Source: Nitratidesulfovibrio termitidis HI1 (GTDB lineage Bacteria; Desulfobacterota; Desulfovibrionia; Desulfovibrionales; Desulfovibrionaceae). Taken from it: 64,000 nt of DNA. Each line of letters starts with the position of its first letter. Positions within the stretch are counted from its first letter, which is position 1. The translations under genes and the position numbers were made by a program. Below the pieces are notes generated by a model. It ran no database searches. It had not been told where the DNA came from and was given only the letters and a program-made list of their open reading frames with translations. This document shows positions 22,531 through 39,870 of the stretch, in pieces. The stretch lies in contig NZ_KI632512.1 of assembly GCF_000504305.1 (NCBI RefSeq), positions 3,474,404 through 3,538,403 on the forward strand, in the 5' to 3' direction.

Positions 22531-22586
22531 CCGGGGCGGCTGACCATGTGGCCCCGTACGCGGGGCGTGCACATTGCCTGGCGTGG

Positions 22587-22623
22587 GCGGTCCTTTCCGA
22601 AAGGGGAGGGCCGCTCTTTTTTG
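22587..22623 (+). terminator. Rho-independent terminator of the livJHMGF operon
   Basis: GCGGTCCTTTCC and GGGGAGGGCCGC pair over a GAAA loop and are followed by a run of six T. It lies about 60 bases after the livF stop. Confidence 0.85.
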
Positions 22624-22751
22624 TCGGCGGGGTGGAGAAGCGGGCAGGTGCGACCAGATGCAGGCGGGTGCGTGTAGGTACAGTCAGAGTCAGGCCGTTG
22701 CGCCGGAATGTGGCAGGTCGCCTGGATGCCACCGGGCGCGGAATGTGAACA

Positions 22752-22795
22752 GGGGCCGCCGTCCCTCCTCCGCGCGGAATGGGACGGACGGCCCC
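22752..22795 (-). terminator. Hairpin downstream of the nifV unit
   Basis: GGGGCCGCCGTCCC (22752-22765) pairs with GGGACGGACGGCCCC (22781-22795), with one bulged base. It lies downstream of the minus-strand nifV and small ORF; there is no T-run. Confidence 0.55.
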
Positions 22796-22877
22796 CGTAT
22801 CAGAGCCCGTTGTTCGCGGGGCCGCCACTCCGCAGACGCGCTCCTGGTGGACGCGTACGCGGGGTGTTCGGTCGCGG

Positions 22878-22967
22878 TCAGGCGGGCAGCGGGCCGAGGA
22901 GAAGCGCCGACAGCATGGCGCAGGCCATGGCTATGGCGACAGAGGTACAGAACAGGCGCATGGTCAT
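22878..22967 (-). CDS. 29-residue hydrophobic peptide coupled to nifV
   Basis: A very short reading frame whose ATG overlaps the nifV stop codon as ATGA (22964-22967) and has a GGGAGG ribosome-binding site directly upstream, inside nifV. The predicted peptide starts MTMRLFC and is otherwise a single hydrophobic stretch (residues 8-27) ending GPLPA, compatible with one membrane helix or a signal sequence. Overlap geometry of this kind usually signals translational coupling, but a chance reading frame of 29 codons cannot be excluded. No family is recognised. Confidence 0.4.
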   Translation of the reverse strand: MTMRLFCTSVAIAMACAMLSALLLGPLPA

Positions 22968-24232
22968 GCCTCCCGTGTACGTGCCGGACCGCGCTGGCCT
23001 TGATTGGCGCGGCGCGGTTGCCGGTTGTTGTCGGTGGTTGAAGTAATGGTCGGCCCGGATTGCGGGGCGTGGGCCTGCGTGCTTCGGGCATCAGGCTGTT
23101 GCGCCAGTTCGGCGAGTTCCGTGAGCTCCGCCGTGGTCAGCGGACGGCGCAGGGTGGCGGAAAGTTCTCGCACCGCCTCGACGATGGCGGGCAGTTCGTC
23201 CGGGGGGGGCAGGATGGAAAGTTCGGACAGGGCGGCGGCCACGGCGGCCACGCCGCTCTTGCGGCCCACGCCCATGCGGCGATTGCCGCCCACGAGTTCC
23301 GGCGGGAAGGGTTCGAACAGGCCCGGGTCGCGCCGCACGCCGTGGGCGTGCAGGCCGCTTTCCACGGCAAAGATGTCGCGTCCGGCCACGGGCCAGTGAC
23401 GCGGTACGGACAGCGAGGCGGCCTGGGCCACGTGGGCGCACAACCCGCGCAGGGGCGCAAGGTCGAACGACGCCCGGCCACGCACCACCAGAGCGGCGGC
23501 CAGTTCTTCCAATCGGGCCACTCCGGCCCGCTCGCCAAGACCCAGTACGGAAACGTCGGCGCAGTCCGCGCCGCATTCCAGCGCGGTGAGGGCGTTGGCC
23601 GTGGCCATGCCGCAATCGTTGTGGAAATGGGTGCCGATGGAGACCCGGCGCGCACGGGGGGCCGAGCCGTCCAGCCGGGCGTTTTCCAGTTCCGTGCGCA
23701 GCGCGCGCACCATGTCCGCCACCTCCAGCGGGGTGTACAGACCAACGGTGTCGCTCAGGCGTACCCGGTGCGCGCCGTGCGCGGCGGCGTGGCGCGCCAC
23801 GGCGACCACGAAGGCACGTTCCGCGCGCGAGGCGTCCTCCATGCCCACGGTCACGTGTTCGATGCCCAGCATGCGCGCTTCGGCCAGGGTGGTGGCCAGC
23901 AGGTCGAGCAGGGCGGGCCTGCCCAGGCCCAGCCGCCGGGCAAGGTGCGCATCGGATACGGGCACCCCCACGCAGACCCGCCGCGCCCCGCAGGCCACGG
24001 CGGCGCGCAGGTCCTCGGGGCGGCAGCGGCACCACGCGGCGGCTGCCAGGCCAGGGGCCACGCGCGCCGCAAGTGCCAGCATGTCCGCAAGGTCGTCACG
24101 CCCGGCCCAGCCCACCTCGGCTTCCGGTACGCCCACGGCGGCAAGGCCGCGCAGGACGCGCTCGCGGTCGGCAACGGACAGGTAGGTGCCGAAGGACTGT
24201 TCCCCTTCGCGCAGGGTGGTGTCGAGCAGCAT
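22964..24232 (-). CDS. nifV: Homocitrate synthase NifV
   Basis: A 422-residue DRE-TIM metallolyase. The catalytic N-terminal signature DTTLREGEQ is at residues 4-12, the metal-binding HFHND motif near residue 206, and the family block VESGLHAHGV near residue 295. It condenses acetyl-CoA and 2-oxoglutarate to homocitrate, the organic ligand of the iron-molybdenum cofactor. The nif setting favours NifV over leucine or lysine pathway paralogues. It is divergent from nifH across a 640-base region. The last 50 residues form a low-complexity Q/T/P/R-rich tail not typical of NifV. A CGGAGG site precedes the ATG at 24232. Confidence 0.9.
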   Translation of the reverse strand: MLLDTTLREGEQSFGTYLSVADRERVLRGLAAVGVPEAEVGWAGRDDLADMLALAARVAPGLAAAAWCRCRPEDLRAAVACGARRVCVGVPVSDAHLARRLGLGRPALLDLLATTLAEARMLGIEHVTVGMEDASRAERAFVVAVARHAAAHGAHRVRLSDTVGLYTPLEVADMVRALRTELENARLDGSAPRARRVSIGTHFHNDCGMATANALTALECGADCADVSVLGLGERAGVARLEELAAALVVRGRASFDLAPLRGLCAHVAQAASLSVPRHWPVAGRDIFAVESGLHAHGVRRDPGLFEPFPPELVGGNRRMGVGRKSGVAAVAAALSELSILPPPDELPAIVEAVRELSATLRRPLTTAELTELAELAQQPDARSTQAHAPQSGPTITSTTDNNRQPRRANQGQRGPARTREA

Positions 24233-24648
24233 GGGGCCTCCGAAAAGAATGGCGGAGCCGTCCCGACCCCACAGGAACAGGTGCGGGTGTTGGCGGGGAA
24301 AGAGGTCGGGACGGACCTCCGCGTGAACCGGATGCCCTACCCCTGCATCGTCAATGCCAAACCCCCATCAGATGGAAAGGCGGTGCGGGGTGCGTCCGGC
24401 TCACATCCGGCTCACATCCGGCTCGTGCCGCCCCTGCATGCCTGCCCGGCGTAACCCGCTGGCGGGTCGCGTTTCATTGCATCCCCTAGTGCCCCTGCGC
24501 TTCGGTGCGGCTGACACGGTGCCGCCATCCTTCGTGCCGGTGCTGCTGGCCTTGGCGTACACGCGCGTCGCAAATCCTGCCGTTTTGCCGCATCGCTCCC
24601 TCTGTCTTCCTTTTCAGGCCCTGTTCCGATCATGTCGGGCACAACGCA

Positions 24649-24666
24649 TTTGTCGCATACGACAAA
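24649..24666. promoter_or_regulatory. Palindrome TTTGTCG-CATA-CGACAAA upstream of nifH
   Basis: Perfect seven-base arms with a four-base spacer, about 100 bases upstream of the sigma54 -24 element, the usual place for an activator site. It contains TGT-N8-ACA, close to but not the NifA consensus, and also has the shape of CRP/FNR-family operators. The cognate protein is unknown. Confidence 0.55.
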
Positions 24667-24740
24667 ATAGTCGGTGCATACGTGTAGCGTCCGACGTGCG
24701 TCATGAACTCGTGGCGCGCGAATAACGTATGCCATTTTAA

Positions 24741-25703
<963 letters not shown>

Positions 25704-25747
25704 ACGAACCATTTCCACCACCACCCACAATCTGAAGGAGAACGGCG

Positions 25748-26098
25748 ATGATGATCATGGTTCGTGCCATCGTGAGACCCGAAAAATCCGACGACGTACT
25801 GGCTGCCCTCATGGCCGCAGGCTTTCCGGCCGTGACCAAGATGTCCGTGGCCGGGCGCGGCAAGCAGCGCGGCATCAAGATCGGCGAAATCACCTACGAC
25901 GAAATTCCCAAGACCCTGCTGATCAGCGTGGTGAAGGCCAGCGAAAAGCAGTTCGTCATCGACACCATCATGGAAGCGGCCCGCACCGGCGCCAAGGGCG
26001 CCTTCGGCGACGGCAAGATCTTCGTCACCTCGGTTGAAGAGGTCTACACCATCAGCTCCGGCGTGAAGGAACCCGACATCGAGGAGGCCGCGGCATGA
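25748..26098 (+). CDS. nifI1: PII-like nitrogenase regulator NifI1
   Basis: A 116-residue PII-family protein with the usual strand pattern, a T-loop region near residues 35-53 (GRGKQRGIKIGEITYDEIPK) and the C-terminal GDGKIFVT signature. Lying between nifH and nifD, it is the NifI1 (GlnB1) type known in archaea and anaerobic bacteria, which inhibits dinitrogenase with NifI2 when nitrogen is plentiful and is relieved by 2-oxoglutarate. Its stop overlaps the nifI2 start as ATGA. Confidence 0.94.
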   Translation: MMIMVRAIVRPEKSDDVLAALMAAGFPAVTKMSVAGRGKQRGIKIGEITYDEIPKTLLISVVKASEKQFVIDTIMEAARTGAKGAFGDGKIFVTSVEEVYTISSGVKEPDIEEAAA

Positions 26099-26469
26099 AG
26101 GAGATCATGGCCGTTGTGCGCCTGAACAAGATGAACCAGACCAAGAAGGCGCTGACCGAAGCGGGCGTGAACGGTTTCTACGCTCACGAGGCCTTCGGTC
26201 GGGGCAAGGGGCTGGTCAGCAGCGACCTGCTGGAAGGCGCCAAGGAAGGGTTCGAAGAGGCCGTGGAACTGCTCGGTGAAAAGGGCAGACTGTATTCCAA
26301 GCGCGTGGTCACCGTGGTGGTGCCCAACGACCAGGTCAGCGACGTGGTCGAGGCCATCATCAAGGTGAACCAGACGGGCAAGCCCGGCGACGGCAAGATC
26401 TTCGTCACCGCCGTTCCGGAAGCCCACCGTGTGAGAACCGCCGAGCATGGCGACAAAGCCATCCTGTAG
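26095..26469 (+). CDS. nifI2: PII-like nitrogenase regulator NifI2
   Basis: A 124-residue PII-family protein, partner of NifI1. The T-loop region spans about residues 36-60, longer than in NifI1, as is typical for NifI2, and the GDGKIFVT signature is near residue 98. It probably forms a complex with NifI1 that blocks NifDK. Four-base overlap with nifI1; a fold-back element of more than 200 bases then separates it from nifD. Confidence 0.94.
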   Translation: MKEIMAVVRLNKMNQTKKALTEAGVNGFYAHEAFGRGKGLVSSDLLEGAKEGFEEAVELLGEKGRLYSKRVVTVVVPNDQVSDVVEAIIKVNQTGKPGDGKIFVTAVPEAHRVRTAEHGDKAIL

Positions 26470-26677
26470 GCGCGTTGCAAGGGTTCTTTTGCCCGCTGAC
26501 GGACTGACCCGAAGGGCGCGAAGCGTGGCCGTTAGGCGAGCGTGCGAGCCTTACGGACATCAAGAGCGAAGCGTCAAACTTCGGCCGCCGACTCGGTCAA
26601 ATACAAGAAGAGTATGTTCCCTCGCGGCCGCCTCGTTTTCCTGGCCAGCGAACAAAACTACACCTTGCAACCACGCC
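26469..26677. repeat. Fold-back intergenic element, copy E, with nested module (nifI2-nifD)
   Basis: Arms: GTTGCAAGG 26474-26482 with CCTTGCAAC 26663-26671 (outer GGCG also pairs with the GCC at 26675); CGCTG near 26494 with CAGCG near 26646; CGGCCGC 26582-26588 with GCGGCCG 26624-26630; ATAC 26601-26604 with GTAT 26612-26615 around aagaaga. A second palindromic module (26503-26575) is inserted in the left side. It starts one base before the end of the nifI2 stop codon. Confidence 0.9.
26529..26556 (+). repeat. Nested palindromic module S1
   Basis: CCGTTAGGC (26529-26537) pairs with GCCTTACGG (26548-26556) apart from a central T-T. It is followed by a conserved tail ending GCGAAGCG. Related copies occur at 31654, 41189, 45117 and 45217. 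Confidence 0.85.
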
Positions 26678-26700
26678 TACTGCTAGCAACGAGGTACATC

Positions 26701-28335
26701 ATGGCTTTGAAGCACAAGAGCATCCCCGACGTCGCGACCGTCAAGGAAGAACTGCTCAAGAAGTATCCCACCAAGGTCGCCCGCAAGCGTGCCAAGCAGA
26801 TCGTCATCAACGACGTGAAGGACGGCGACGTGGTGCCCGAGGTGCAGGCCAACGTGCGCACCACGCCCGGCATCATCACCATGCGCGGCTGCACCTACGC
26901 AGGGTGCAAGGGCGTTATCCTGGGCCCCACCCGCGATATCGTGAACATCACGCACGGGCCCATCGGCTGCGGGTTCTATTCGTGGCTCACCCGCCGCAAC
27001 CAGACCAAGGCGCCGTTCGAATCGTCCGAAAACTTCATGCCCTACGCCTTTTCCACGGACATGCAGGACGAGGACATCATCTTCGGCGGCGAAAAGAAGC
27101 TGATCGCGGCCATCCAGGAGGCCTACGACACCTTCCACCCCAAGGCCATCGCCATCTTCGCCACCTGTCCGGTGGGCCTCATCGGCGACGACATCCACGC
27201 CGTGGCCCGCAAGATGAAGGAAAAGCTGGGCATCAACATCTTTGCCTTCAGCTGCGAAGGGTACAAGGGCGTCTCGCAGTCCGCGGGTCACCACATCGCC
27301 AACAACCAGATCTTCACCCACGTGGTGGGCGAGGACGATACCCCCAAGCTTGGCGAATACAAGATCAACATGCTGGGCGAGTACAACATCGGCGGTGATG
27401 CCTTCGAACTGGAACGCGTGCTGGAAAAGTGCGGCATCACCCTGGTGTCCACCTTCAGCGGCAACTCCACCTACGAGCATTTCGCCACCGCCCACCAGGC
27501 CGACCTGAACGCCGTCATGTGCCACCGTTCCATCAACTACGTGGCCGAAATGATGGAGACCAAGTACGGCATCCCGTGGATCAAGGTGAACTTCATCGGT
27601 GCGGAATCCTCTGCCAAGTCGCTGCGCAAGATCGCCCAGTACTTCGGCGACAAGAAGCTGATCGACCGGGTGGAAGAAGTCATCGCCGAAGAAATGCCCG
27701 CCGTGTACGCGGCCCTGGAAGAAGTGAAGCCCTTCACCGAAGGCAAGACGGCCATGCTGTTCGTGGGTGGCTCGCGCGCTCACCACTACCAGGACCTGTT
27801 CACCGAAATGGGCATGAAGACCATCGCCGCCGGGTACGAATTCGCCCACCGCGACGACTACGAAGGCCGCAAGGTGATGCCCAGCATCAAGGTGGACGCC
27901 GACAGCCGCAACATTGAAGAAATCGAGGTCACCCCGGACGCCACCCGCTTTGTCCCGCGCAAGTCTGACGAAGACCTGAAGCGCCTCACCGAGGAAGGCT
28001 TCACCTTCAAGGATTACGAAGGGATGATGCCCCAGATGGAATCCAACACCCTCGTCATCGATGACCTGAACCAGTACGAGGCCGACAAGCTGATCGAACT
28101 CCTGAAGCCCGACGTGTTCTGCGCGGGCATCAAGGAAAAGTTCTCGGTGCAGAAGATGGGCGTGCCCATGAAGCAGCTGCACAGCTACGACTACGGCGGA
28201 CCCTATGCGGGCTTCAAGGGCGCGGTGAACTTCTACACGGAAATCAAGCGCCTGGTCACCAGCAAGGTCTGGTCCGACCTCAAGGCCCCCTGGGAAGAAA
28301 ACCCCGAGCTCTCGGCAACCTACGTCTGGGAATAA
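26701..28335 (+). CDS. nifD: Nitrogenase molybdenum-iron protein alpha chain NifD
   Basis: A 544-residue catalytic subunit. P-cluster cysteines are visible in RGCTYAGCKG (residues 62-69), THGPIGCGF near residue 90 and FATCPVGLIGDD near residue 158. The cofactor cysteine is in NAVMCHRSINY near residue 274, and the cofactor histidine is in KQLHSYDYGGPY near residue 498. The chain is longer than the Azotobacter type, with an insertion in the last third, as seen in the group of nitrogenases from anaerobes. The ATG at 26701 is chosen because the upstream open frame is the repeat element and is not coding. It forms the alpha2beta2 enzyme with NifK. Confidence 0.97.
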   Translation: MALKHKSIPDVATVKEELLKKYPTKVARKRAKQIVINDVKDGDVVPEVQANVRTTPGIITMRGCTYAGCKGVILGPTRDIVNITHGPIGCGFYSWLTRRNQTKAPFESSENFMPYAFSTDMQDEDIIFGGEKKLIAAIQEAYDTFHPKAIAIFATCPVGLIGDDIHAVARKMKEKLGINIFAFSCEGYKGVSQSAGHHIANNQIFTHVVGEDDTPKLGEYKINMLGEYNIGGDAFELERVLEKCGITLVSTFSGNSTYEHFATAHQADLNAVMCHRSINYVAEMMETKYGIPWIKVNFIGAESSAKSLRKIAQYFGDKKLIDRVEEVIAEEMPAVYAALEEVKPFTEGKTAMLFVGGSRAHHYQDLFTEMGMKTIAAGYEFAHRDDYEGRKVMPSIKVDADSRNIEEIEVTPDATRFVPRKSDEDLKRLTEEGFTFKDYEGMMPQMESNTLVIDDLNQYEADKLIELLKPDVFCAGIKEKFSVQKMGVPMKQLHSYDYGGPYAGFKGAVNFYTEIKRLVTSKVWSDLKAPWEENPELSATYVWE

Positions 28336-28356
28336 CGGGCAAGGAAGGGAAACGAC

Positions 28357-29733
28357 ATGCTGCTCAGACATACCCCGACGGAAATCAAGGAGCGCTCGGC
28401 GCTCAACATCAACCCGGCCAAGACCTGCCAGCCCATCGGCGCCATGTACGCGGGCCTGGGCATCAAGGGCTGCCTGCCGCACAGCCACGGTTCGCAGGGC
28501 TGCTGCGCCTACCACCGCAGCACCCTGACCCGCCACTACAAGGAACCCGTGTCGGCGGCCACCAGCTCGTTCACGGAAGGCGCCTCGGTGTTCGGCGGAC
28601 AGGCCAACCTGTTGCAGGCCATCGAAAACATCTTCTCGGTGTACGAACCGGAAGTCATCGCCGTGCACACCACCTGCCTGTCCGAAACCATTGGCGACGA
28701 CCTGAAGCAGATTGTCGACAAGGCGGAGAAGGAAGGCAAGGTGCCCGCGGGCAAGCAGGTGATCTTTGCCTCCACGCCCAGCTACGTGGGTTCGCACGTC
28801 ACCGGCTTCTCCAACATGGTCAAGGGCATGGTAAAGTGCCTGGCCGTTTCTACCGGCAAGAAGAACGGCAAGGTCAACATCATTCCCGGCTGGGTGGAAC
28901 CTGCGGACATGGAGGAGATCAAGCGCATCGCCGGCATGATCGGCGTGTCCTACACCATGTTCCCGGATACCTCCGGCGTGCTCAACGGCCCGCTGACCGG
29001 CGAGTACCACATGTTCCCCGATGCGGGCACCCCGGTCGAGGACATCCGCGCCGCGGGCGATGCCATCGGCACGCTGGCCCTGGGCGAATGGTGTTCCGCC
29101 GATGCGGCCCGCACCCTGGATTCGCAGTGCAAGGTGCCCTGCCGGGTGCTGGACATCCCCATCGGGCTGAAGGCCACCGACCGCTTCATCGACACCCTGC
29201 GCACCGTGGCTGGCACCTCCGTGCCCGACACCGTGAACTTCGAACGTGGCCAGCTCATCGACGTCATCTCGGACTACCACCAGTACTTCTTCGGCAAGAA
29301 GGTGGCACTGGTGGGCGACCCGGACCAGCTCATCGCGCTGACCGAGTTCCTGCTGACGCTCGACATGCAGCCCGTCCACGTGGTTACCGGCACGCCGGGC
29401 AAGAAGTTCGAGGCGCGCATCAAGGAATTGTGCGCGGGCAAGGGCTTTGACGTCAATGTGCGCGCCGCGGGCGACATGTTCCTGCTCCATCAGTGGATCA
29501 AGAACCAGCCCGTCGATCTCATCATGGGCAACACCTACTGCAAGTACATCGCCCGTGACGAAGACATCCCCTACGTGCGCTTCGGCTTCCCCATCGTGGA
29601 CCGGGTGGGCCACCAGTACTTCCCGGTGACGGGGTACAAGGGCGGCATCCGCCTGATGGAAAAGATCCTGGGCGTCCTGCTCGACCGCGCCGACCGTGAC
29701 GCGCCCGAGGAGAAGTTCGAACTGGTCTACTAG
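28357..29733 (+). CDS. nifK: Nitrogenase molybdenum-iron protein beta chain NifK
   Basis: A 458-residue subunit. P-cluster cysteines are in NPAKTCQPIG near residue 23, SQGCCAYHRS near residue 49 and TTCLSETIGDD near residue 106. It lacks the roughly 50-residue N-terminal extension of the Azotobacter protein, as usual for the short NifK that pairs with a long NifD. The C-terminal region VDRVGHQYFPVTGYKGG is characteristic. The start lies 21 bases after the nifD stop; the stop is followed at once by a fold-back repeat. Confidence 0.97.
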   Translation: MLLRHTPTEIKERSALNINPAKTCQPIGAMYAGLGIKGCLPHSHGSQGCCAYHRSTLTRHYKEPVSAATSSFTEGASVFGGQANLLQAIENIFSVYEPEVIAVHTTCLSETIGDDLKQIVDKAEKEGKVPAGKQVIFASTPSYVGSHVTGFSNMVKGMVKCLAVSTGKKNGKVNIIPGWVEPADMEEIKRIAGMIGVSYTMFPDTSGVLNGPLTGEYHMFPDAGTPVEDIRAAGDAIGTLALGEWCSADAARTLDSQCKVPCRVLDIPIGLKATDRFIDTLRTVAGTSVPDTVNFERGQLIDVISDYHQYFFGKKVALVGDPDQLIALTEFLLTLDMQPVHVVTGTPGKKFEARIKELCAGKGFDVNVRAAGDMFLLHQWIKNQPVDLIMGNTYCKYIARDEDIPYVRFGFPIVDRVGHQYFPVTGYKGGIRLMEKILGVLLDRADRDAPEEKFELVY

Positions 29734-29879
29734 GGCGTGCGGTCACGAGCGTCCTTTTGCCCTCTGCCTTCGTCAGAACAAGTTTTTATTCCGGTCACGT
29801 ACGAGAAGAGTACGCTCCCTCCATAAAAAATTGTCCTTCCTTGGCAGAGCACAAAAATCCTGCTCGTGACGACACACCC
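29733..29879. repeat. Fold-back intergenic element, copy F (after nifK)
   Basis: Arms: GTCACGAGC 29742-29750 with GCTCGTGAC 29862-29870 (outer GGGCGTG pairs with CACACCC); CTCTGCC near 29762 with GGCAGAG near 29843; TTTTTAT 29783-29789 with ATAAAAA 29823-29829; GTAC 29799-29802 with GTAC 29810-29813 around gagaaga. It begins at the nifK stop codon. Confidence 0.92.
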
Positions 29880-29962
29880 AGCAACCGCATCCTTTCCGCC
29901 CGGCGCCGCTTGGCACCACACGGAGCCTTGAGGCGCCGGGCGGAGAACCCCACGGAGACACC

Positions 29963-31213
29963 ATGAGCGGCGCACCCCACTGTATGCACACGAACGGACG
30001 GCCCGGCGGCTGGCTGCTGCTGCCGGTGGCGCCGCGTTCCAACGCCCGCAGCCGTCATGGCGATACGGGCGTGAGCACCCCGTGCGCCTGCGGAACGCAG
30101 CCTGCGTCCCCTGCCATGCTGCCGCACGAGGCGCTGGAGCACCTGCGTACGGTCATGGAATCGGGCGCGGTGGTGGACACGGTGGGCATTGCCGGTCCCG
30201 GCGATCCGTTCGCCGTGCCCGACCGCACCCTGGAAACCCTGCATCTGGTGCGCGCCGCCTACCCGCACATCACTCTGTGCGTGACCACCAACGGCCTTGG
30301 CGTGGCCAGCCATGCCGCCGCACTGGCGGACCTTGGCGTCAGCCACGTCACCCTGCTCATGGACGCCGTGGACCCGGAACTGGTGGACACCCTGTACGCC
30401 TGGATCCGCCCCGGCACCCGCACCCTGCGGCCCGGCGAGGGCGCCGCGCTGCTCGTGGACGAGCAGGCCGTGGCCCTGGCCGCGCTGGTCAAGGCGGGCA
30501 TCGAGGTCGCGGTGTGCGTCACCGTGTACCCCGGCATCAACGATACCCATGTGGGCGACATCGCTGCCGCAGCCAAGGTGCTGGGCGCCTCGGGCATCTA
30601 CGTGCTGCCCTTCGTTCCCGCCGAGGACACGGCAGGCCCTGTGCCCGCTGCCGACGCGGCCACCATGGACGCCGCCCGCAACGCGGCCGCCGCCTGGCTG
30701 CCCGTGCTTGACGCCTCTGCCCGCGACGGTCTGCCCGTCGCGCGGCGCACCGGCATGGGATGCGGCGAACCCGTGGCCGTCACCGCAGGCTCCGGCCTGC
30801 CGGTGCCCGGCGGTGACAGGCCCTACGTGGCCGTGGCCAGCAGCGATGGTTTTGACGTGGATGAACACCTTGGGCACGCCCGCCAGTTTCTGGTGTACGG
30901 GCCCAAGGCCGGTCCTGGGGACGGACCCCAGAACGATCCCACGGTCGGTCCCATGGTCGGGCCGGTGGAGTTGCTGGGCGTGCGCCCGGCACCGCCCGCC
31001 GGTTCCGGCGACGCCCGGTGGGAGGCGCTGGCCGCCGTCCTGTCCGACTGCACCTACCTGCTGGTGTCCAGCGCGGGCCAGCGCCCCGTGGAATACCTGG
31101 CCGGCAAGGGGCTGCGCGTCATCCAGACCGAAGACAACATCGAGGGCCTCGTGGACGTGCTCTACGGGGGTGGCAAGAAAGGCAGGAAACGCGGCAAGGG
31201 CCGCACAGTCTAG
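29963..31213 (+). CDS. NifB-like/NifX-domain protein lacking the radical-SAM cysteines
   Basis: A 416-residue paralogue of NifB. It aligns with the true NifB of this cluster (34819-36102) through the radical-SAM barrel: PVAPRSN against PVAPRCN, GIAGPGDPFA against GIAGPGDPMA, LETLHLV and TNGLGV, and a GINDTHVGDIA segment. The three cluster-binding cysteines of NifB (C33, C37, C40) are replaced by S26, S30 and G33, and the second NifB cysteine pair (HCKRC) is reduced to one cysteine. It therefore should not bind the SAM cluster. A NifX/NafY-like domain follows (about residues 285-405) with an inserted proline/glycine-rich segment. Possible roles are a cofactor carrier, a NifB partner or a decaying duplicate. 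The frame is intact over its full length, against a pseudogene. Confidence 0.85.
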   Translation: MSGAPHCMHTNGRPGGWLLLPVAPRSNARSRHGDTGVSTPCACGTQPASPAMLPHEALEHLRTVMESGAVVDTVGIAGPGDPFAVPDRTLETLHLVRAAYPHITLCVTTNGLGVASHAAALADLGVSHVTLLMDAVDPELVDTLYAWIRPGTRTLRPGEGAALLVDEQAVALAALVKAGIEVAVCVTVYPGINDTHVGDIAAAAKVLGASGIYVLPFVPAEDTAGPVPAADAATMDAARNAAAAWLPVLDASARDGLPVARRTGMGCGEPVAVTAGSGLPVPGGDRPYVAVASSDGFDVDEHLGHARQFLVYGPKAGPGDGPQNDPTVGPMVGPVELLGVRPAPPAGSGDARWEALAAVLSDCTYLLVSSAGQRPVEYLAGKGLRVIQTEDNIEGLVDVLYGGGKKGRKRGKGRTV

Positions 31214-31237
31214 GTATTGCAAGGGAGAGGAAGGACC

Positions 31238-31540
31238 ATGCCCAAGCCGACGCATCAGATTCTCGTATGCCAGAGCTTCCGTCACAAGGGCGAACCCAAG
31301 GGCGTCTGTTTCAAGCAGACCGACGGGTTCCTGCAGTACCTCGAAGAGGAAATCCTTGATCGCGGTCTGGACATCCTGGTCACTGCCACCGGGTGTCTGA
31401 AGGCCTGCGAGGAAGGCCCCGTCCTCGTGGTGCAGCCGCAGAACTGGTGGTTCAAGGGCGTGGACAGCCACGACGCCATCGATGCCATCCTCGACGGCAT
31501 CGAAGACGGCGAACCTAATGCCGAGTATTTGATGTACTAA
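31238..31540 (+). CDS. 2Fe-2S ferredoxin, thioredoxin-like fold, nif-associated
   Basis: A 100-residue protein with cysteines at C11 and C24 (spaced by 12 residues) and a C-x3-C pair in ATGCLKACEEGP near residue 53. This is the pattern of the thioredoxin-like 2Fe-2S ferredoxin of Clostridium pasteurianum and its nif-linked relatives. It may donate electrons during cofactor assembly or protect nitrogenase. A GAGGAAGG site precedes the ATG at 31238, 24 bases after the NifB-like gene. Three hairpins follow. Confidence 0.88.
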   Translation: MPKPTHQILVCQSFRHKGEPKGVCFKQTDGFLQYLEEEILDRGLDILVTATGCLKACEEGPVLVVQPQNWWFKGVDSHDAIDAILDGIEDGEPNAEYLMY

Positions 31541-31551
31541 AACAGAATCTT

Positions 31552-31641
31552 CCGGGGAGGGGACCTTTTAAAAAAGGTCTCCCTCCCCGGACCCCACCCC
31601 CCCAAACTTTTTATTTGGGGGCACCCTCCCGAGAGGGGTGC
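31552..31641 (+). terminator. Three consecutive hairpins between the ferredoxin gene and nifE
   Basis: Hairpin 1 (31552-31590) pairs CCGGGGAGG and neighbours with CCTCCCCGG through an 18-bp imperfect stem. Hairpin 2 (about 31599-31621) pairs CCCCAAA with TTTGGGG. Hairpin 3 (31621-31641) pairs GCACCC with GGGTGC. The set could reduce read-through into nifE or protect the upstream mRNA. Confidence 0.7.
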
Positions 31642-31653
31642 AGGGGACGGCAG

Positions 31654-31681
31654 CCGTTATGCGAGTCTTCGAGCATTACGG
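31654..31681 (+). repeat. Nested-type palindromic module S5, free-standing upstream of nifE
   Basis: CCGTTATGC pairs with GCATTACGG apart from a central T-T; the tail GATGGCGATCGCAACGCG matches the other module copies. This is the one copy not inside an AAGA-loop fold-back element. Confidence 0.8.
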
Positions 31682-31743
31682 ATGGCGATCGCAACGCGCA
31701 AAGCCCCTTGCCCGCCGGAGGCGTAAAAAGAAGGAAGGCGACC

Positions 31744-33168
31744 ATGACCACCGCAACCGCACCCAACACCACCGCCACGGCAGAATGCCGCGACGCGGAT
31801 CTTCTGGACGAACGGAAGAAGCAGGTGCACCGCGCCGGGCAGGGTCCCATCGACATGGCCTGCAACCGCGAGAGCCTCGCGGGGGCCGTCAGCCAGCGCG
31901 CCTGCGTGTTCTGCGGCTCGCGCGTGGTGCTGTACCCCATCGCCGACGCGCTGCACCTGGTGCACGGCCCCATCGGCTGCGCCGCCTACACCTGGGACAT
32001 CCGGGGGGCGCTTTCGTCCGGGCCGGAACTGCACCGCCTGAGCTTTTCCACCGACCTGCAGGAAAAGGACGTCATCTTCGGCGGCGAAAAGAAGCTGGCC
32101 GCCGCGCTGGACGAACTGATCGACCTGCACCAGCCCAAGGCCGCCTTCGTCTACTCCACCTGCATCGTGGGCCTGATCGGCGACGATCTGGGCGCCGTAT
32201 GCCGCAAGATGTCCGAGAAGAAGGGCATCCCGGTCATTCCCGTGCAGTCGGAAGGCTTCAAGGGCAACAAGCGCGAAGGCTACCTTGCCGCGTGCAAGGC
32301 CATGTTCCAGCTGGTGGGCACCGCACCCACGGACGATGTTTCGCCCCTTTCCGTGAACATCCTCGGCGACTTCAACCTGGCGGGCGAAATCTGGATCGTG
32401 CGTGGCTACCTTGAGCGCATGGGCATTCAGGTGGTGGCCAACATCACCGGCGACGGTCGCGTGGACGACATCCGCCGCTGCCACGGCGCCGCCCTGAATC
32501 TGGTGCAGTGCAGCGGGTCCACCATGGATCTGGCCAAGATGATGAAGGAAAAATACGGCACCCCGCACCTGCGCGTGTCGTACCTGGGCATCGAGGACAT
32601 GGCCGATTCGCTGTACGCCGTGGCCGAACATTTCGAAGCCGTGGACCCCGGCATCGTGGAACGCACCCGCGACCTCGTGCGCGAGGAACTGGCCGCCCTC
32701 ATGCCGCGCCTGCGCGACATCCGGCGCGACCTTTCCGGCAAGCGCGCCGCCATCTACGTGGGCGGTTCGTTCAAGGCGTTCTCGCTGATCAAGGCCTTCC
32801 GGCACATCGGCATGAACGTGGTGCTGGTGGGCTCGCAGACCGGCACGCAGGAAGAGTACCAGGAACTGGAAACCGTGTGCGACCCCGGCACCGTCATCAT
32901 CGACGACGCCAACCCGCTGGAGCTTTCGCACTACGTGCGCGAGCTGGACGTGGACGTGTTCGTGGGCGGCGTGAAGGAACGCCCCATTGCCCACAAGCTG
33001 GGCGTGGGCTTCTGTGACCACAACCACGAGCGCAAGATCGCGCTGGCCGGTTTCGAGGGCATGTACAACTTCGCCCGCGAGGTGCACGCCTCGGTCATGA
33101 GTCCCGTCTGGCGGTTCGTGCCCCGCCGGTCCCGGCGCGCCGCTGTTACCGCTGGCGCGGATGCATAG
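31744..33168 (+). CDS. nifE: Nitrogenase cofactor scaffold protein NifE
   Basis: A 474-residue NifD homologue that forms the NifEN scaffold on which the NifB product is matured to the molybdenum cofactor. Cluster cysteines appear in ACVFCGSRV near residue 56, HGPIGCAAYTWD near residue 79 and STCIVGLIGDD near residue 140. The cofactor-site region reads NLVQCSGSTMDL near residue 255. The final 20 residues are basic and alanine-rich. The ATG at 31744 follows a GAAGGAAGG site. It overlaps the end of the open frame leading to nifN. Confidence 0.95.
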   Translation: MTTATAPNTTATAECRDADLLDERKKQVHRAGQGPIDMACNRESLAGAVSQRACVFCGSRVVLYPIADALHLVHGPIGCAAYTWDIRGALSSGPELHRLSFSTDLQEKDVIFGGEKKLAAALDELIDLHQPKAAFVYSTCIVGLIGDDLGAVCRKMSEKKGIPVIPVQSEGFKGNKREGYLAACKAMFQLVGTAPTDDVSPLSVNILGDFNLAGEIWIVRGYLERMGIQVVANITGDGRVDDIRRCHGAALNLVQCSGSTMDLAKMMKEKYGTPHLRVSYLGIEDMADSLYAVAEHFEAVDPGIVERTRDLVREELAALMPRLRDIRRDLSGKRAAIYVGGSFKAFSLIKAFRHIGMNVVLVGSQTGTQEEYQELETVCDPGTVIIDDANPLELSHYVRELDVDVFVGGVKERPIAHKLGVGFCDHNHERKIALAGFEGMYNFAREVHASVMSPVWRFVPRRSRRAAVTAGADA

Positions 33169-33178
33169 GGGGTGTGTC

Positions 33179-34801
33179 ATGACGTTTGAGTATGTTGCCA
33201 ATGACGGACTGTGCGCCGACGAGTATTCCGGTTCCTGCGACTGTGGCGGAAGCTGCGCGGATAGTTGCGCCGATAGTTGTGCAGACGGCTGCGCCGAGGG
33301 TTGCGACTGTTCCGAAGCGCCGGAAACCGGCCTGGAAACTGCCCCTGACGACAGTGGCCTGACCCCGGTGGCCCTGAAGACCGCGCCTGCCACCAGCGGC
33401 GGCAAGCCCGGCAAGACTCCGCGCCCCAAGCGCCCCGATTTCGTTTCCACCACCAACGCCTGCAAGCTGTGCACGCCGCTGGGGGCCATGCTGGCCTTCC
33501 GGGGCGTGGAGGGCGCCGTGCCCTTCCTGCACGGTTCGCAGGGCTGCGCCACCTACATGCGGCGTTACGTGATCAGCCACTACCGCGAACCCATGGACAT
33601 CGCCTCGTCCTCGCTGGGCGAAAAGCAGGCCGTGTACGGCGGGGGGCCCAACCTGAAGAAGGGCATCCTCAACGTCATGAAGAAGTACGAACCCGTGCTG
33701 GTGGGCGTAGCCACCACCTGCCTCACCGAGACCATCGGTGATGACGTGGGCGGCTATCTGCGCGAATTCCGCAACGAATTCGGCGACCTTGACCTGCCGG
33801 AAATCGTCCATGTGCACACGCCCAGCTACAACGGCACGCACATGGAAGGCTGGAACGCCGCCGTGCGCGCCCTGGTGGACCAGCTGGCCAAGGACAAGGT
33901 GGAACCCCACGGCAAGGTGGCCCTGCTGCCCGGCTTCGTTTCCCCGGCGGACCTGCGCCACCTGCGCGACCTGATTACCGATTTCGGTTCAGAAGCGGTT
34001 ATCCTGCCCGACCTGTCCGACCCGCTGGATGGCCCGGCGCTGGAAGACTACACCCCGCTGCCCGAAGGCGGCACTCCGCTGGCCGATATCCGCGCCCTGT
34101 CCGGGGCTGCGGGTGTCATCGAATGCGGGCGCTCGCTGGCCATGACGCCGACCGGATCCACTGGCCCGGCCACGGCAGGGCGGGTGCTGCACGAACGCTT
34201 TGGCCTGTCGTTGCACGGAGTGGGGCTGCCCATCGGCCTGCGCGAAACCGACGCCCTTGTCGCCGCGCTGGAAGCCGTCACCGGCAAGCCGCTGCCCCGC
34301 AAGCACGAACTGGAACGCGGACGGTTCGTGGACGCCCTGGTGGACGGCCACAAGTATGTGTCCGGCAAGCGCGCCGTGGTCTACGGCGAGGCGGATCTGG
34401 TCATCGGACTCGTCTCCCTGCTGACCGAGATCGGCGTGCACACCGTGCTGGCCGCCACCGGCACGCGCGGGGCGCATCTGGCCGAATCCATTGCCGCCGT
34501 TACCGAAGGCCTGCTGCCCGAAATGCCCATGGTCATCGAGGGCGCGGACTTCGAGGAAATCGCCGACACGGCAGAAGGACTTTCGCCCGACCTCCTGGTG
34601 GGCAACAGCAAGGGCTACCGCTACGCCCGGCAGTGGAACATCCCCCTTGTGCGGGCGGGCTTTCCCATCCACGACCGCTTCGGTGGCCACCGCCTGCTGC
34701 ATGTGGGCTACGCCGGTGCCCAGGCCCTCATGGACCGCATCGTCAACGCCGTCATCGAGAAGACCCAGACCGATAGCCCGGTCGGCTATTGTTACCTGTA
34801 G
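33179..34801 (+). CDS. nifN: Nitrogenase cofactor scaffold protein NifN with cysteine-rich N-terminal extension
   Basis: A 540-residue NifK homologue, partner of NifE. The conserved part starts at about residue 90 (NACKLCTPLGAMLAF), with HGSQGCATYMRR and TTCLTETIGDDVGG downstream. The first 85 residues are unusual: nine cysteines at residues 12, 20, 22, 26, 30, 34, 38, 42 and 44, six of them spaced exactly every four residues in CADS-like repeats, followed by a Pro/Thr/Lys linker. This could bind metal or be a recent repeat expansion. The start at 33179 is chosen over 33161 because the G-rich ribosome-binding site (about 33167-33173) fits only the later ATG. Confidence 0.93.
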   Translation: MTFEYVANDGLCADEYSGSCDCGGSCADSCADSCADGCAEGCDCSEAPETGLETAPDDSGLTPVALKTAPATSGGKPGKTPRPKRPDFVSTTNACKLCTPLGAMLAFRGVEGAVPFLHGSQGCATYMRRYVISHYREPMDIASSSLGEKQAVYGGGPNLKKGILNVMKKYEPVLVGVATTCLTETIGDDVGGYLREFRNEFGDLDLPEIVHVHTPSYNGTHMEGWNAAVRALVDQLAKDKVEPHGKVALLPGFVSPADLRHLRDLITDFGSEAVILPDLSDPLDGPALEDYTPLPEGGTPLADIRALSGAAGVIECGRSLAMTPTGSTGPATAGRVLHERFGLSLHGVGLPIGLRETDALVAALEAVTGKPLPRKHELERGRFVDALVDGHKYVSGKRAVVYGEADLVIGLVSLLTEIGVHTVLAATGTRGAHLAESIAAVTEGLLPEMPMVIEGADFEEIADTAEGLSPDLLVGNSKGYRYARQWNIPLVRAGFPIHDRFGGHRLLHVGYAGAQALMDRIVNAVIEKTQTDSPVGYCYL

Positions 34802-34818
34802 GAATCAAGGAGACCGCC

Positions 34819-36102
34819 ATGAAGCCGCTGCGCACCACCCCCCCCGGCCATCCGTGCTTTGATCGCAACAGCGCCTCGTCCTGCGGTCGCGTCCACGTTC
34901 CCGTGGCGCCCAGGTGCAACATCCAGTGTGGGTACTGCAACCGCAAGTACGACTGCGTCAACGAATCGCGTCCCGGCGTGACCAGCGCAGTGCTTTCGCC
35001 GCGCCAGGCCCTGGACTACGTGGACAAGGTGCTGGCCGCTGACCCGCGCATTACCGTCATCGGCATTGCAGGCCCCGGCGATCCCATGGCCAACCCCGCG
35101 GAAACGCTGGAAACGCTGCGCCTGGTGCATGAAAAGCACCCCGAGCTGCTGTTCTGCCTTTCGTCCAACGGTCTCGGCCTGCCGCCGCACCTCGACCGGC
35201 TGAAGGAACTGGGTGTCACCCACGTCACCGTCACCATCAACGCGGTGGACCCGGCCATCGGCGAAAAGCTGTACTCCTGGGTGCGCGATGACAAGGTGGT
35301 CTGGCGTGGCCGCGAGGCGGCGGAACTGCTGCTTTCGCGCCAGCTGGAATCGGTGCGCGGCCTTGTGGAGCGCGGCATGATCGTCAAGGTGAACACCATC
35401 CTGGTGCCCGGCGTGAATGACCACCATGTGGAAGAGGTGGCGCGCGTTGTGGGCGAACTGGGGGCGACCATCCAGAACATCATCCCGCTGAAGCCCACGG
35501 CAGACACCCCGCTGGCGCATCTGCCGGAACCTGACGCCGCCGCCGTCAACGCGGCGCGCAAGGGCGCGGGCGAGCACATTTCGCAGATGACCCACTGCAA
35601 GCGCTGCCGCGCCGACGCCGTGGGCCTGCTGCACGAGGACAAGTCCGCCGAGATGGCCGAAACCCTGCGCGCCTGTGCCGCCGTCAAGACCGAGGATGCC
35701 GAGCGCCCCTATGTGGCCGTGGCCACCCGCGAAGGCATGCTGGTCAACCAGCACCTGGGCGAGGCCGCCCGGTTCCAGATCTGGGGGCAGGGCGTGAACG
35801 GGTTCTTCCTGGTGGAAGAACGCCTTGCGCCCAAACCCGGCTGCGGCCCCGAACGCTGGAAGCAGGTGGCCCATACCCTGCACGATTGCCGCGCCCTGCT
35901 GTGCGCCGCCTTCGGCGCGCACCCGGAAGGGATTCTGGTGGCCGCCGGGGTGCAGCCGGTGGAAGCCTCCGGCTTCATCGAGGACGCCCTGGAAGTGGTC
36001 TTCGGCAACGGCAACACCGCCGCCCTGCGCGGTCGCAAGGGCGGGGTGGGCAAGACGTCGTGTGCTGGGGGCGGGTGTCGCGGTAACGGCGAAGGCTGTT
36101 AG
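34819..36102 (+). CDS. nifB: Nitrogenase cofactor biosynthesis protein NifB (radical SAM plus NifX domain)
   Basis: A 427-residue radical SAM enzyme that builds the 8-iron NifB cofactor precursor with central carbide. The SAM-cluster motif PRCNIQCGYC gives C33, C37 and C40, followed by NRKYDCVNESRPGV. A second cysteine pair is in MTHCKRCRADAVG near residue 262. The NifX-like domain starts at about residue 295 (RPYVAVATREG). The last 25 residues are a G/C-rich tail (KTSCAGGGCRGNGEGC) not typical of NifB. AAGGAG precedes the ATG. Final nif gene here; a fold-back element overlaps its stop codon. Confidence 0.96.
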   Translation: MKPLRTTPPGHPCFDRNSASSCGRVHVPVAPRCNIQCGYCNRKYDCVNESRPGVTSAVLSPRQALDYVDKVLAADPRITVIGIAGPGDPMANPAETLETLRLVHEKHPELLFCLSSNGLGLPPHLDRLKELGVTHVTVTINAVDPAIGEKLYSWVRDDKVVWRGREAAELLLSRQLESVRGLVERGMIVKVNTILVPGVNDHHVEEVARVVGELGATIQNIIPLKPTADTPLAHLPEPDAAAVNAARKGAGEHISQMTHCKRCRADAVGLLHEDKSAEMAETLRACAAVKTEDAERPYVAVATREGMLVNQHLGEAARFQIWGQGVNGFFLVEERLAPKPGCGPERWKQVAHTLHDCRALLCAAFGAHPEGILVAAGVQPVEASGFIEDALEVVFGNGNTAALRGRKGGVGKTSCAGGGCRGNGEGC

Positions 36103-36229
36103 TTTCCGCAAGTTCTCCGCGCGCTGGCTTCGTCGGATTCCGGTTTTACTCCGGTCACATACCAAAGAGTATGCTCCCTGCGTAAAATCCTCATCCTCCT
36201 TGCCAGCGCACGGACTGCTTGCGGAAACT
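36101..36229. repeat. Fold-back intergenic element, copy G (after nifB)
   Basis: Arms: AGTTTCCGCAAG 36101-36112 with CTTGCGGAAACT 36218-36229 (12 of 12); GCGCTGGC near 36121 with GCCAGCGC near 36202; GTTTTAC 36143-36149 with GTAAAAT 36182-36188; ATAC 36159-36162 with GTAT 36169-36172 around caaaga. It starts inside the nifB stop codon. Confidence 0.93.
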
Positions 36230-36285
36230 GAAGGTCTGCCGGTGCCGTACGGTGGCAGCTACGCCATCTGAAAGTTGAACAGTAA

Positions 36286-36323
36286 AACGGCGGTCCTCCT
36301 TGGGGAGGGCCGCCGTTCTTTTG
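36286..36323. terminator. Terminator between nifB and the convergent liv operon
   Basis: AACGGCGGTCCTCC pairs with GGAGGGCCGCCGTT (one bulge) across TTGG, followed by CTTTTG on the plus strand and, read on the minus strand, by a short T-run. It can end both nif and the second livJHMGF transcripts. Confidence 0.8.
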
Positions 36324-36354
36324 CGTGGGAAGGAGGGGGACGCCTTGCGGGGGC

Positions 36355-37065
36355 CTAGATGCCCAGGTACGCCTCGCGGATGTACGGGCTGTCCAACAGT
36401 TCGCCAGCCGGGCCTTCCATGGCGGCGCGGCCGTGTTCCAGCACGTAGCCCCGGTCGGACAGGCTCAGCGAGTGCTTCACGTCCTGTTCCACCAGCAGCA
36501 CGGTCAGCCCCTTGTCGGCAATGGCGCGGATGGTGCGGAAGATTTCCGCGATCAGGATGGGCGCAAGCCCCAGCGAGGGTTCATCCAGCATCAACATTTT
36601 GGGACAGGCCATCAGGCCCCGGCCTATGGCCACCATTTGCTGTTCGCCGCCGGAAAGGGTCATGGCCGCCTGGTTCTGGCGTTCGCGCAGGCGGGGGAAC
36701 ATGGTGAAGACCTCTTCCAGCGTCCGTTCGCGCACCGCGTAGGCCTTCTTGTTGTGCGCCCCGGCCAGCAGGTTGTCCTTCACGCTCATCAGCGAGAACA
36801 GCCGCCGGCCTTCCGGCACGTGCACCAGACCGTGGTTTACCACTTCTTCCGGCGGCAGGGCGTGCATGGGCGCGCCGTTGAAGGTGATGGACCCGCTGTC
36901 GGGCCGCAGCAGCGCCGATACGGTCTTCAGCATGGTGGTCTTGCCCGCCCCGTTGCCGCCGATGATGGACACCACCTCGCCTTCGCGGACGGAGATGTTC
37001 AGGTCGTACAGTACCTGCACGTCGCCGTAGGCGACGTTGACCTTCTCCATGTCAAGCAGTGCCAT
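36355..37065 (-). CDS. livF: Branched-chain amino-acid-type ABC transporter ATPase LivF (second set)
   Basis: A 236-residue ATPase with Walker A GGNGAGKTT, signature LSGGEQQMVAIGRGL and Walker B LMLDEPSLGLAP. It is the last gene of the second importer operon and overlaps livG by 14 bases, with a GGGAGA ribosome-binding site inside livG. The transporter class covers branched-chain amino acids, amides and urea; the cargo of this copy is not known. Confidence 0.93.
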   Translation of the reverse strand: MALLDMEKVNVAYGDVQVLYDLNISVREGEVVSIIGGNGAGKTTMLKTVSALLRPDSGSITFNGAPMHALPPEEVVNHGLVHVPEGRRLFSLMSVKDNLLAGAHNKKAYAVRERTLEEVFTMFPRLRERQNQAAMTLSGGEQQMVAIGRGLMACPKMLMLDEPSLGLAPILIAEIFRTIRAIADKGLTVLLVEQDVKHSLSLSDRGYVLEHGRAAMEGPAGELLDSPYIREAYLGI

Positions 37066-37777
37066 AGTTCTCTCCCAGGTAGGCCTTGATGACGTTTTCG
37101 TCCCGGGCCACCTGTTCCGGTTTGCCGCGGCATATCTTCTGGCCGAAGTGGATGACCACGATCTCGTCCGACAGGGCCATGATGGCCCGCATGATGTGCT
37201 CGATGACGAAGATGGTCATGCCGCGCTCTCGCAGGGCGCGGATGATGTCGATCATCTCGTCCACCTCGGTGGGGCGCAGACCCGCCATGACCTCGTCGAG
37301 CAGCAGCAGCTTGGGGTCCGTGGCCAGGGCGCGGGCGATTTCCAGCCGCTTGCGGTCGGCGATGGTCAGCGAACCGGGCAGGGCGTTGCTCTTGCTGCCC
37401 ATGCCCAGCAGTCGCAGCACCTCCATGGCCTTGTCGCGCGCCTCGTCGCGGCGGTCGGTGACGGCAAAGGCCCCCACGGTCACATTGTCCAGCACGGTCA
37501 TGGACTGGAAGGGCTTGACGATCTGGAAGGTGCGGGCAAGGCCCTTTTTGCACAGGTCCCACGGCTTCTGGCCGGTCACGTCCTCTCCGTCGAACAGGAT
37601 GTGCCCCTCGGTGGGTTTGTACAGCCCGGCCACGCAGTTGAAGGCGGTGGACTTGCCCGCGCCGTTGGGACCGATGAGGCCGAGAATCTGCCCCCGCCCG
37701 ATTTCCAGGCTCAGGTCGTTGACGGCGATGAGGCCGCCGAAGCGCATGGTCACTTCCTGGACTTGCAGCAGGCTCAT
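37052..37777 (-). CDS. livG: Branched-chain amino-acid-type ABC transporter ATPase LivG (second set)
   Basis: A 241-residue ATPase with Walker A GPNGAGKST near residue 36, signature region [15 protein letters not shown] near residue 135 (the LivG-like replacement of LSGGQ), Walker B LLLDEVMAGLRP, in which the usual DEP is DEV, and switch histidine in FVIEHIMRAIM. The start overlaps the livM stop as ATGA. Partner of the neighbouring LivF. Confidence 0.92.
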   Translation of the reverse strand: MSLLQVQEVTMRFGGLIAVNDLSLEIGRGQILGLIGPNGAGKSTAFNCVAGLYKPTEGHILFDGEDVTGQKPWDLCKKGLARTFQIVKPFQSMTVLDNVTVGAFAVTDRRDEARDKAMEVLRLLGMGSKSNALPGSLTIADRKRLEIARALATDPKLLLLDEVMAGLRPTEVDEMIDIIRALRERGMTIFVIEHIMRAIMALSDEIVVIHFGQKICRGKPEQVARDENVIKAYLGENYGTA

Positions 37778-38901
37778 GGACGTTCCTCCTGAGGCGATGC
37801 GGAGCCCTGGGTGGTGGGTGCCGCCGGTGTGGCATGTGTTGCGGGTGCGCCCGGCCCGTCTGGTCCGCCTTGCGCATCTGGCGTACCCGGATCATCCGGC
37901 GGAGCCGGGGCAAACCGCGCGGCCACCTTGTCGAACAGCCGCAGCAGCGGCTCCGTAAGGCCACGCGGCTGGTACAGCATGACGACGATCAGCACCACGC
38001 CGAGAATGATCAGGTGCAGTCCCGGCAAGGTGGCCGAGAAGTAGATGCGGCTGAATTCCGTCACCGGGCGCAGCAGCAGCGCGCCGATGATGGGCCCGGC
38101 GATGGAGCCGCGCCCGCCGATGAGCGCGATGAACGCCAGTTCGAAGGAAAGATCCAGCGTCAGCACGCTCTTGGGGTAGATGAACAGGGTCAGCTGGGCC
38201 AGAAAGGTGCCGGCCAGCGCCGTGAGAAACGACGAGATGGCCATGGCGGTGACCTTGTAGCGGGCCACGTTCACGCCAAGGGCCTGCGCCGCATCCGGGT
38301 CTTCGCCGCCGCTCTTCAGGTAATAGCCCATCTTGGAGCGGGATATGGCCGCAGTCATGGCCAGCACCGCCACCAGCATGGTCAGGATGATGTAGTAGTA
38401 CGGTTCCTTGCTGGCGAACTGGAAGGCCCAGAAGCTGCCCTCGCCCGCCTGCAGCGGCGGTATGTTCAGCCCGCGCGGGCCGTTCAGCTTCAGGGGGCCC
38501 AGCATGTCGATGTTCTCGACCATCACCCGGATGCCTTCCACGAAGGCCATGGTGGACAGGGCAAAGTAGGCCCCGCGCATCTTCAGGGTGGGCTTGCCGA
38601 TCAGGTAGCCCACCCCGGCGGCCAGCACGGCCCCCACCAGCATGCCTATCCACGGGCTGATGCCGTACTGCAGCCAGAGAATGGTGGAGGTGTAGGCCCC
38701 TATGCCCACGAACACCGAATGCCCCAGCGGCAACACCCCGGCAAAGCCGCCCACCAGGTTCCAGGTGGTGGTCATGTACGCGTACAGGTACAGGATGATC
38801 AGGATGTGCAGGTAGGTCGCGCTGCGCACCACCAGTGGCAGGGCAAAGGCGGCCAGCGTTACGGCGATGAGACAGTTCCGCTTGAATTCCTGTTGTGTCA
38901 T
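37774..38901 (-). CDS. livM: Branched-chain amino-acid-type ABC transporter permease LivM (second set)
   Basis: A 375-residue permease. The conserved block TTWNLVGGFAGVLPLGHSVF lies at about residue 45, and the GGRGSIAGPIIGA loop near residue 260. The last 45 residues form a low-complexity Pro/Gly/Ala/Thr-rich cytoplasmic tail (from about residue 330) absent from most LivM proteins. It overlaps livG by four bases and follows livH by 18 bases. Confidence 0.92.
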   Translation of the reverse strand: MTQQEFKRNCLIAVTLAAFALPLVVRSATYLHILIILYLYAYMTTTWNLVGGFAGVLPLGHSVFVGIGAYTSTILWLQYGISPWIGMLVGAVLAAGVGYLIGKPTLKMRGAYFALSTMAFVEGIRVMVENIDMLGPLKLNGPRGLNIPPLQAGEGSFWAFQFASKEPYYYIILTMLVAVLAMTAAISRSKMGYYLKSGGEDPDAAQALGVNVARYKVTAMAISSFLTALAGTFLAQLTLFIYPKSVLTLDLSFELAFIALIGGRGSIAGPIIGALLLRPVTEFSRIYFSATLPGLHLIILGVVLIVVMLYQPRGLTEPLLRLFDKVAARFAPAPPDDPGTPDAQGGPDGPGAPATHATPAAPTTQGSASPQEERP

Positions 38902-38919
38902 GTGTCGCTCGTGGTGCGC

Positions 38920-39813: not shown

Positions 39814-39870
39814 GAAAGCTCCAGGCGGTTTGCGGGGCAGGGCGCGTGCCCTGCCCCGCGTCTGTCGCGG

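Follow-up and report, generated by a model that had tools for sequence, protein, structure and literature searches.

The nif region of Nitratidesulfovibrio termitidis HI1, whose genome is a single contig of 4.26 Mb, lies within the 64,000-nucleotide stretch of DNA analysed here (the window) and reads nifH-nifI1-nifI2-nifD-nifK-pB-fdx-nifE-nifN-nifB, the names being given by eye and those of pB, nifB and fdx also by profile scan. We use pB as a working name for the cysteine-less NifB-like protein encoded at 29963-31213 (+ strand) and for its relatives in the slot between nifK and fdx. The assignment draws on the open reading frame, profile scans, the predicted fold and gene order. The frame starts with ATG and runs for 416 codons with no internal stop, exactly as given in the first-pass annotation, and the reading-frame list and gene-order count confirm its placement between nifK (28357-29733, +; named by eye) and the 2Fe-2S ferredoxin gene fdx (31241-31540, +; reading frame and profile scan). 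The complete nifB of the same operon (34819-36102, +; profile scans) served as the comparison sequence. The annotation of N. vulgaris DP4 has a matching gene order around nifK, without pB. A strict σ54 pattern found no match on either strand of 22001-37000; a loose pattern, run on the + strand only, gave one σ54-like match before nifH (24764-24779, +). Between nifK and pB no match was found among the σ70 and terminator patterns scanned. By eye, operons for branched-chain amino-acid-type ABC transporters lie on both sides of the nif region (17217-22530 and 36355-41157).

Alignment with the window NifB indicates that pB has lost the catalytic site. The cysteines C33, C37 and C40 of the CX3CX2C motif are replaced by S26, S30 and G33 (30038-30061, +), the loop residues Cys46 and Glu49 are missing, and S and D stand at the aligned positions of the HCKRC pair; Cys267 (30761-30763, +) lies further on, near the lost pair, and the GCGE around it is kept in the five full-length copies of the window's genus. 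By the NifB motif list in passages of PMC5715403, the window pB lacks HPC, ExRP and Cx2CRxDAxG and retains AGPG. The protein thus has none of the three cysteines that would ligate the [4Fe-4S] cluster of a radical SAM enzyme, and because these ligands are missing, pB should be unable to make the carbide. What remains is a recognizable two-domain NifB. Pfam Radical_SAM matches at 35.9 bits (cut-off 29.5), with a barrel of radical-SAM type at residues 41-201 (30083-30565, +) whose fold is taken from predicted models, and a NifX/NafY-type cofactor domain occupies residues 298-396 (30854-31150, +), identified by a Pfam match of 32.3 bits (cut-off 26.3) and by an alignment search of the PDB. The NCBIfam nifB model (TIGR01290, cut-off 343.65) scores 399 bits on the window NifB, 154.5 on the window pB and 145-279 on three other pB members; among NCBIfam models none lay closer to these four members than nifB, itself below cut-off. 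The first-pass annotation had reported the loss of the radical-SAM cysteines, the reduced HCKRC pair, and the retention of GIAGPGDP, LETL, TNGLG, GINDTHV and the NifX domain, and each of these points was borne out.

pB is predicted to keep the NifB barrel fold. AlphaFold models of the window pB and of a relative (L073) have mean pLDDT values of 81 and 87, respectively. A Foldseek search with the relative's model put NifB structures at the top, at E 1e-22 to 1e-20 against 7e-9 for the match that followed, and VIA-align aligned the window model with NifB structures 7jma, 7jmb, 6y1x and 7bi7 at Z 28.0-28.9, other structures reaching at most 18.6. The window model is of low confidence at residues 35-47, the loop after the former radical-SAM motif, and at 253-278, the region of the C-terminal cysteines.

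The distribution of pB was followed through relatives. In 288 searched genomes of the window's family, additional NifB-like copies turned up, frequently some 4.8 kb away from nifB. Of the 80 loci fetched, 62 were second-copy matches and 18 came from genomes that seemed to have NifB alone or whose state was unclear. Since this sample mixes chosen second-copy and NifB-only-looking loci, it gives no prevalence estimate. The family set, window included, holds 67 pB proteins of at least 300 amino acids; one copy cut by a contig end (L122) was left out. Twenty further loci, mostly from a search of 395 genomes drawn evenly from the phylum, yielded 18 more, for a total of 85, 14 of which represent six further families of the phylum. 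Two more genomes, outside the 85, also gave matches to pB. All 85 occupy the nifK-pB-fdx slot (83 by script and two by eye from the script output), so that the same slot is filled across seven families. Because only open frames of 300 amino acids or more were collected, the set is biased against disrupted copies, and start codons in relatives were picked by script, so that N-terminal counts depend on this choice.

Not every nif locus carries the gene. In seven fetched loci nifK is followed by fdx with no pB between them, and two N. vulgaris plasmids have the same arrangement; because such relatives retain nifK, fdx and nifENB, pB is dispensable in some lineages. On one of these plasmids, that of N. 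vulgaris DP4, the nif operon is directly followed by drt2 (L140:11823-13106), annotated as an antiviral reverse transcriptase; drt2 is not annotated at the matching place in strain L2. NifB above the NCBIfam cut-off was also found in 7 of 11 pB genomes checked. The remaining four are one in which NifB is cut by a contig end (G159), one in which a C-terminal piece of NifB lies less than 400 bases from a contig end (G708) and two fragmented assemblies (G242, G243).

The loss of CX3CX2C is a property of the family, as the first-pass annotation had proposed to check in orthologues: the motif is absent from 83 of the 85 proteins, with no substitute cysteine conserved at its columns, and the five ligands of the radical-SAM motif and loop, retained at 0.00-0.08, are among the least-kept sites. 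HPC persists in 48/85, ExRP in 13/85 and Cx2CRxDAxG in 2/85, each being present in 91/91 NifB. The two pB proteins that keep CX3CX2C belong to one genus; they are mirror-image copies in the nifK-fdx slot (L117:7989-9197 and L118:5183-6391) that have lost HPC and the strand cysteine and carry Gln in place of the loop Glu. Sites invariant in the 91 NifB fare differently in the two domains, median retention in pB being 0.63 in the barrel (n=64) and 1.00 in the NifX domain (n=18). pB also has a basic C-terminal tail (31163-31210, + in the window, from sequence and motif count), two adjacent K/R residues near the C-terminus occurring in 77/85 pB and 0/91 NifB. One part of the first-pass description needs revision: it treated a single gene, and although its cysteine loss is general, the window copy is a derived one, and the N-terminal cysteine, the strand-1 histidine, the SNG-strand cysteine and one C-terminal cysteine are, each taken singly, kept by most relatives.

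In a tree of 41 pB and 35 NifB with an archaeal outgroup, pB forms one clade apart from NifB (support 100/99; present in all 200 bootstrap trees), and the state of the radical-SAM motif requires one change among the 76 sequences. A quick tree of 67 pB, 27 NifB of nif loci and three other NifB agrees. Branches are long, and the tree does not fix the place at which pB joins NifB. Both trees set pB apart from NifB, and on this ground we reject an origin of pB by recent duplication of the nifB next to it. Many nitrogen-fixing sulfate reducers and their relatives keep, in the nitrogenase operon, an old NifB copy that has shed its catalytic iron-sulfur site.

Selection on this copy was estimated by the Nei-Gojobori method in five groups, the fourth with dS near saturation. 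Median dN/dS for pB was 0.25, 0.29, 0.16, 0.11 and 0.39, against 0.09, 0.13, 0.05, 0.04 and 0.24 for nifB in the matching groups, and is thus 1.6-3.1 times that of nifB. This faster evolution, with the absence of pB from some relatives, is what a functionless, decaying nifB duplicate would show; dN/dS is nevertheless clearly below 1, and full-length frames fill the same slot in seven families in 85 copies (gathered as open frames), so that selection and distribution together lead us to reject decay, the least credible of the readings considered. The purifying selection for which the first-pass annotation had suggested looking is evident in four pairs that include the window gene (dN/dS 0.24-0.29; Fisher p 4e-11 to 2e-7), and neither the relaxed selection nor the frequent disruption that it named as refuting was found, as far as open frames can tell: no disrupted pB was met among the copies examined, all gathered as such frames. 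Two weaker matches carry internal stops (G514:C1:1479399 and G699:C42), and in seven matches flagged with one stop the coordinates show that this is the codon which ends the gene. When the domains are taken separately, constraint is tighter on the NifX part in three groups out of four and looser on it in the window's genus (dN/dS 0.42 vs 0.20). The pB barrel evolves faster than that of NifB, yet is constrained.

We next consider what the barrel could still bind. The K-cluster of MthNifB is ligated by C18, H31, C115, C260 and C263 (PMC9692996), which we mapped onto pB through a HMMER alignment. In the window pB, Cys7 (29981-29983, +; N-terminal register uncertain by one residue) aligns with the cysteine of HPC, which is C13 in the window NifB and C18 in MthNifB, Leu19 (30017-30019, +) replaces the K-cluster histidine (H26 and H31, respectively), and Cys106 (30278-30280, +) aligns with Cys113 (C115 of MthNifB). 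Across the family the N-terminal cysteine and the strand-1 histidine are each kept in 62/85 (0.73), the SNG-strand cysteine in 55/85 (0.65) and C263 in 74/85 (0.87), and C260 is retained at only 0.06. In the window's genus the strand-1 histidine and both HCKRC cysteines are lost, and in the 14 proteins from outside the family C18, H31, C115 and C263 are kept in 2, 6, 6 and 10. It is conceivable, though improbable, that pB acts upstream of NifB as a scaffold whose dead barrel gathers [4Fe-4S] units, fuses them into a K-cluster and passes this to NifB; four of the five ligands do occur together in 45/85, L073 included, and a ferredoxin gene adjoins, but the set is incomplete in the other 40, the window copy among them, and C260 is nearly always missing. 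Retention at 0.65-0.87 is moreover weak as proof of cluster binding when the barrel median is 0.63. The four ligands stand at percentiles 0.56-0.83 among NifB-invariant barrel sites, and because their retention is thus ordinary and all four occur in only 45/85, it does not follow that the barrel holds a cluster. Retention of SAM binding, either as a sensor or for chemistry with another metal site, is very unlikely: GPG of the AGPG motif persists in 84/85, but the cysteines of CX3CX2C are gone from 83/85 and no other cysteine is conserved in their columns.

In the NifX domain, His302 of the window pB (30866-30868, +) aligns with H35 of NifX, and this position is a histidine in 85/85 pB, within the motif [DN]xH[LF]G; R341, R352-W353 and D362-C363 are conserved alongside it. 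In an alignment-based PDB search the histidine aligns with H35 of NifX (9ian) and with the histidine of the NafY core (1p90); a search with the window's NifX domain as a single sequence gave no match. In the cryo-EM structure of the NifEN-NifX handover complex, H35 of NifX coordinates the apical iron of NifB-co, and the C-terminal domain of NifB carries an analogous residue (PMC13128457). Of the two domains of NafY, the core (1P90) binds FeMo-co, with H121 as the key ligand (PMC8496260), and MoFe protein devoid of FeMo-co is purified together with NifY and NafY (PMC6016461). In Klebsiella and Azotobacter the nifTY genes fall in the gap that separates nifK from nifE (PMC6429469).

A cofactor domain, a barrel that should be unfit for chemistry and a position in the nifTY gap therefore favour the reading that pB is probably, by a modest measure of confidence, a NifB-derived pseudoenzyme that serves nitrogenase assembly as a chaperone of the cofactor. 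The NifX domain would hold the apical iron of NifB-co (or FeMo-co) through His302, NifEN or apo-NifDK would dock on the NifB-shaped N-terminal part, and pB would hand the cofactor to one of these. Many relatives also retain in the barrel an incomplete complement of ligands for an 8Fe cluster (Cys, His, Cys, Cys); in the lineage of the window copy the NifX-domain site alone is intact. We counted for the chaperone the invariant NifX histidine (85/85), NifX-domain retention of 1.00, the fold, the slot, the single clade and purifying selection. Counted against it were the lower constraint on the NifX part in the window's genus, the absence of pB from some nif loci, the dispensability of NifX in A. 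vinelandii (PMC13128457) and of the NifX domain of K. oxytoca NifB (PMC5715403), and the tail, which is basic, unlike that of NifX, which binds a basic patch of NifE (PMC13128457). Of the non-catalytic jobs proposed in the first-pass annotation, that of a carrier fits the invariant histidine; as the tree shows, pB is no recent paralogue of the neighbouring nifB. More tentatively, pB may be a dedicated pseudoenzyme family spread over several families of one phylum, which dropped its SAM machinery once and whose partial K-cluster set, kept in many lineages, and NifX histidine, kept in every lineage examined, would provide two cofactor-holding sites between NifB, NifEN and NifDK.

Alternatively, pB could be a cofactor-free partner that binds NifB or NifEN and controls stability, access or turnover. 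Such a regulator would accord with the retained NifB fold, with loss of the catalytic motif by one change on the tree and with a barrel that evolves faster than that of NifB while remaining constrained; we consider it unlikely, since it leaves the invariant cofactor-binding histidine unexplained, and NifY and NafX, the suggested placeholders or antagonists, are without that histidine (PMC13128457).

The chaperone reading does not make pB a strict replacement for NifX. The NifX model (TIGR02663) scores 14.7 bits on the window pB against a cut-off of 112, and of the eight PF02579 places in the window's genome, five proteins were scanned and none is NifX by NCBIfam. NifX above cut-off was found in 0/20 hand-picked genomes (12 with pB, seven without and one whose pB state was unchecked), and 14 control genomes likewise gave none and so no positive control. 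Because these genomes lack NifX above cut-off whether or not they have pB, a simple replacement of NifX by pB is not supported. In one pB genome (G637) a NifX-like reading frame of about 109 amino acids directly follows nifB (L212:817 onward), at 39.8 of 112 bits.

Compared with known systems, pB shares with two-domain NifB (TIGR01290) the barrel and NifX domain in the same element order, the GPG motif, the NifX-domain histidine and a predicted fold at Z 28-29, and differs in lacking CX3CX2C (83/85), in a loop shorter in most members, in the basic tail and in scoring 145-279 bits (four members, cut-off 343.65). Like NifX of A. vinelandii (9ian) it has the NifB-co-binding histidine at the same alignment position; unlike NifX it carries a dead barrel and a basic tail. 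With NafY/NifY it shares a two-part build, with a C-terminal domain matching core-NafY, and a gene in the nifK-nifE gap, whereas its N-terminus is a predicted NifB-type barrel and that of NafY is the helical N-NafY domain, which binds apo-NifDK; NifY lacks the histidine that pB keeps (PMC13128457). The window's genome encodes two other NifB-like proteins. One, complete, two-domain and with a Gly/Cys-rich linker, lies near an AnfG/VnfG gene and nifD/K-like frames (G000:C1:82047-83324 and 87744-88076) in an alternative nitrogenase cluster, where pB had no match. The other (G000:C1:4067390-4068124) has the CX3CX2C and HCxRC cysteines and no NifX domain; no other nif-like frame matched within the 16 kb fetched around it.

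A 2017 survey (PMC5715403) removed 28% of putative NifB proteins as probable NifX; the majority of these had no CX3CX2C. Its excluded sequences, as described in passages of that paper, resemble pB in lacking the motif and keeping a NifX domain; because pB has a barrel, it is not a simple NifX, unlike that survey's reading of its excluded set. The NifB3 proteins of PMC8287671 lack a C-terminal cysteine motif rather than the radical-SAM motif, passages of PMC3733012 and PMC13031127 hold no mention of a conserved NifB family without CX3CX2C, and a limited literature search found no description of such a protein in nif operons. NifB surveys filtered on CX3CX2C may therefore have discarded a real family. 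Nitrogenase research and the engineering of nitrogen fixation both still lack an account of the route that NifB-co takes from NifB to NifEN and FeMo-co takes to NifDK. Members of the family with four K-cluster ligands could serve to trap or carry a labile cluster, and a natural NifB minus its catalytic cluster, kept beside nifK, would separate the holding of the cofactor from its making.
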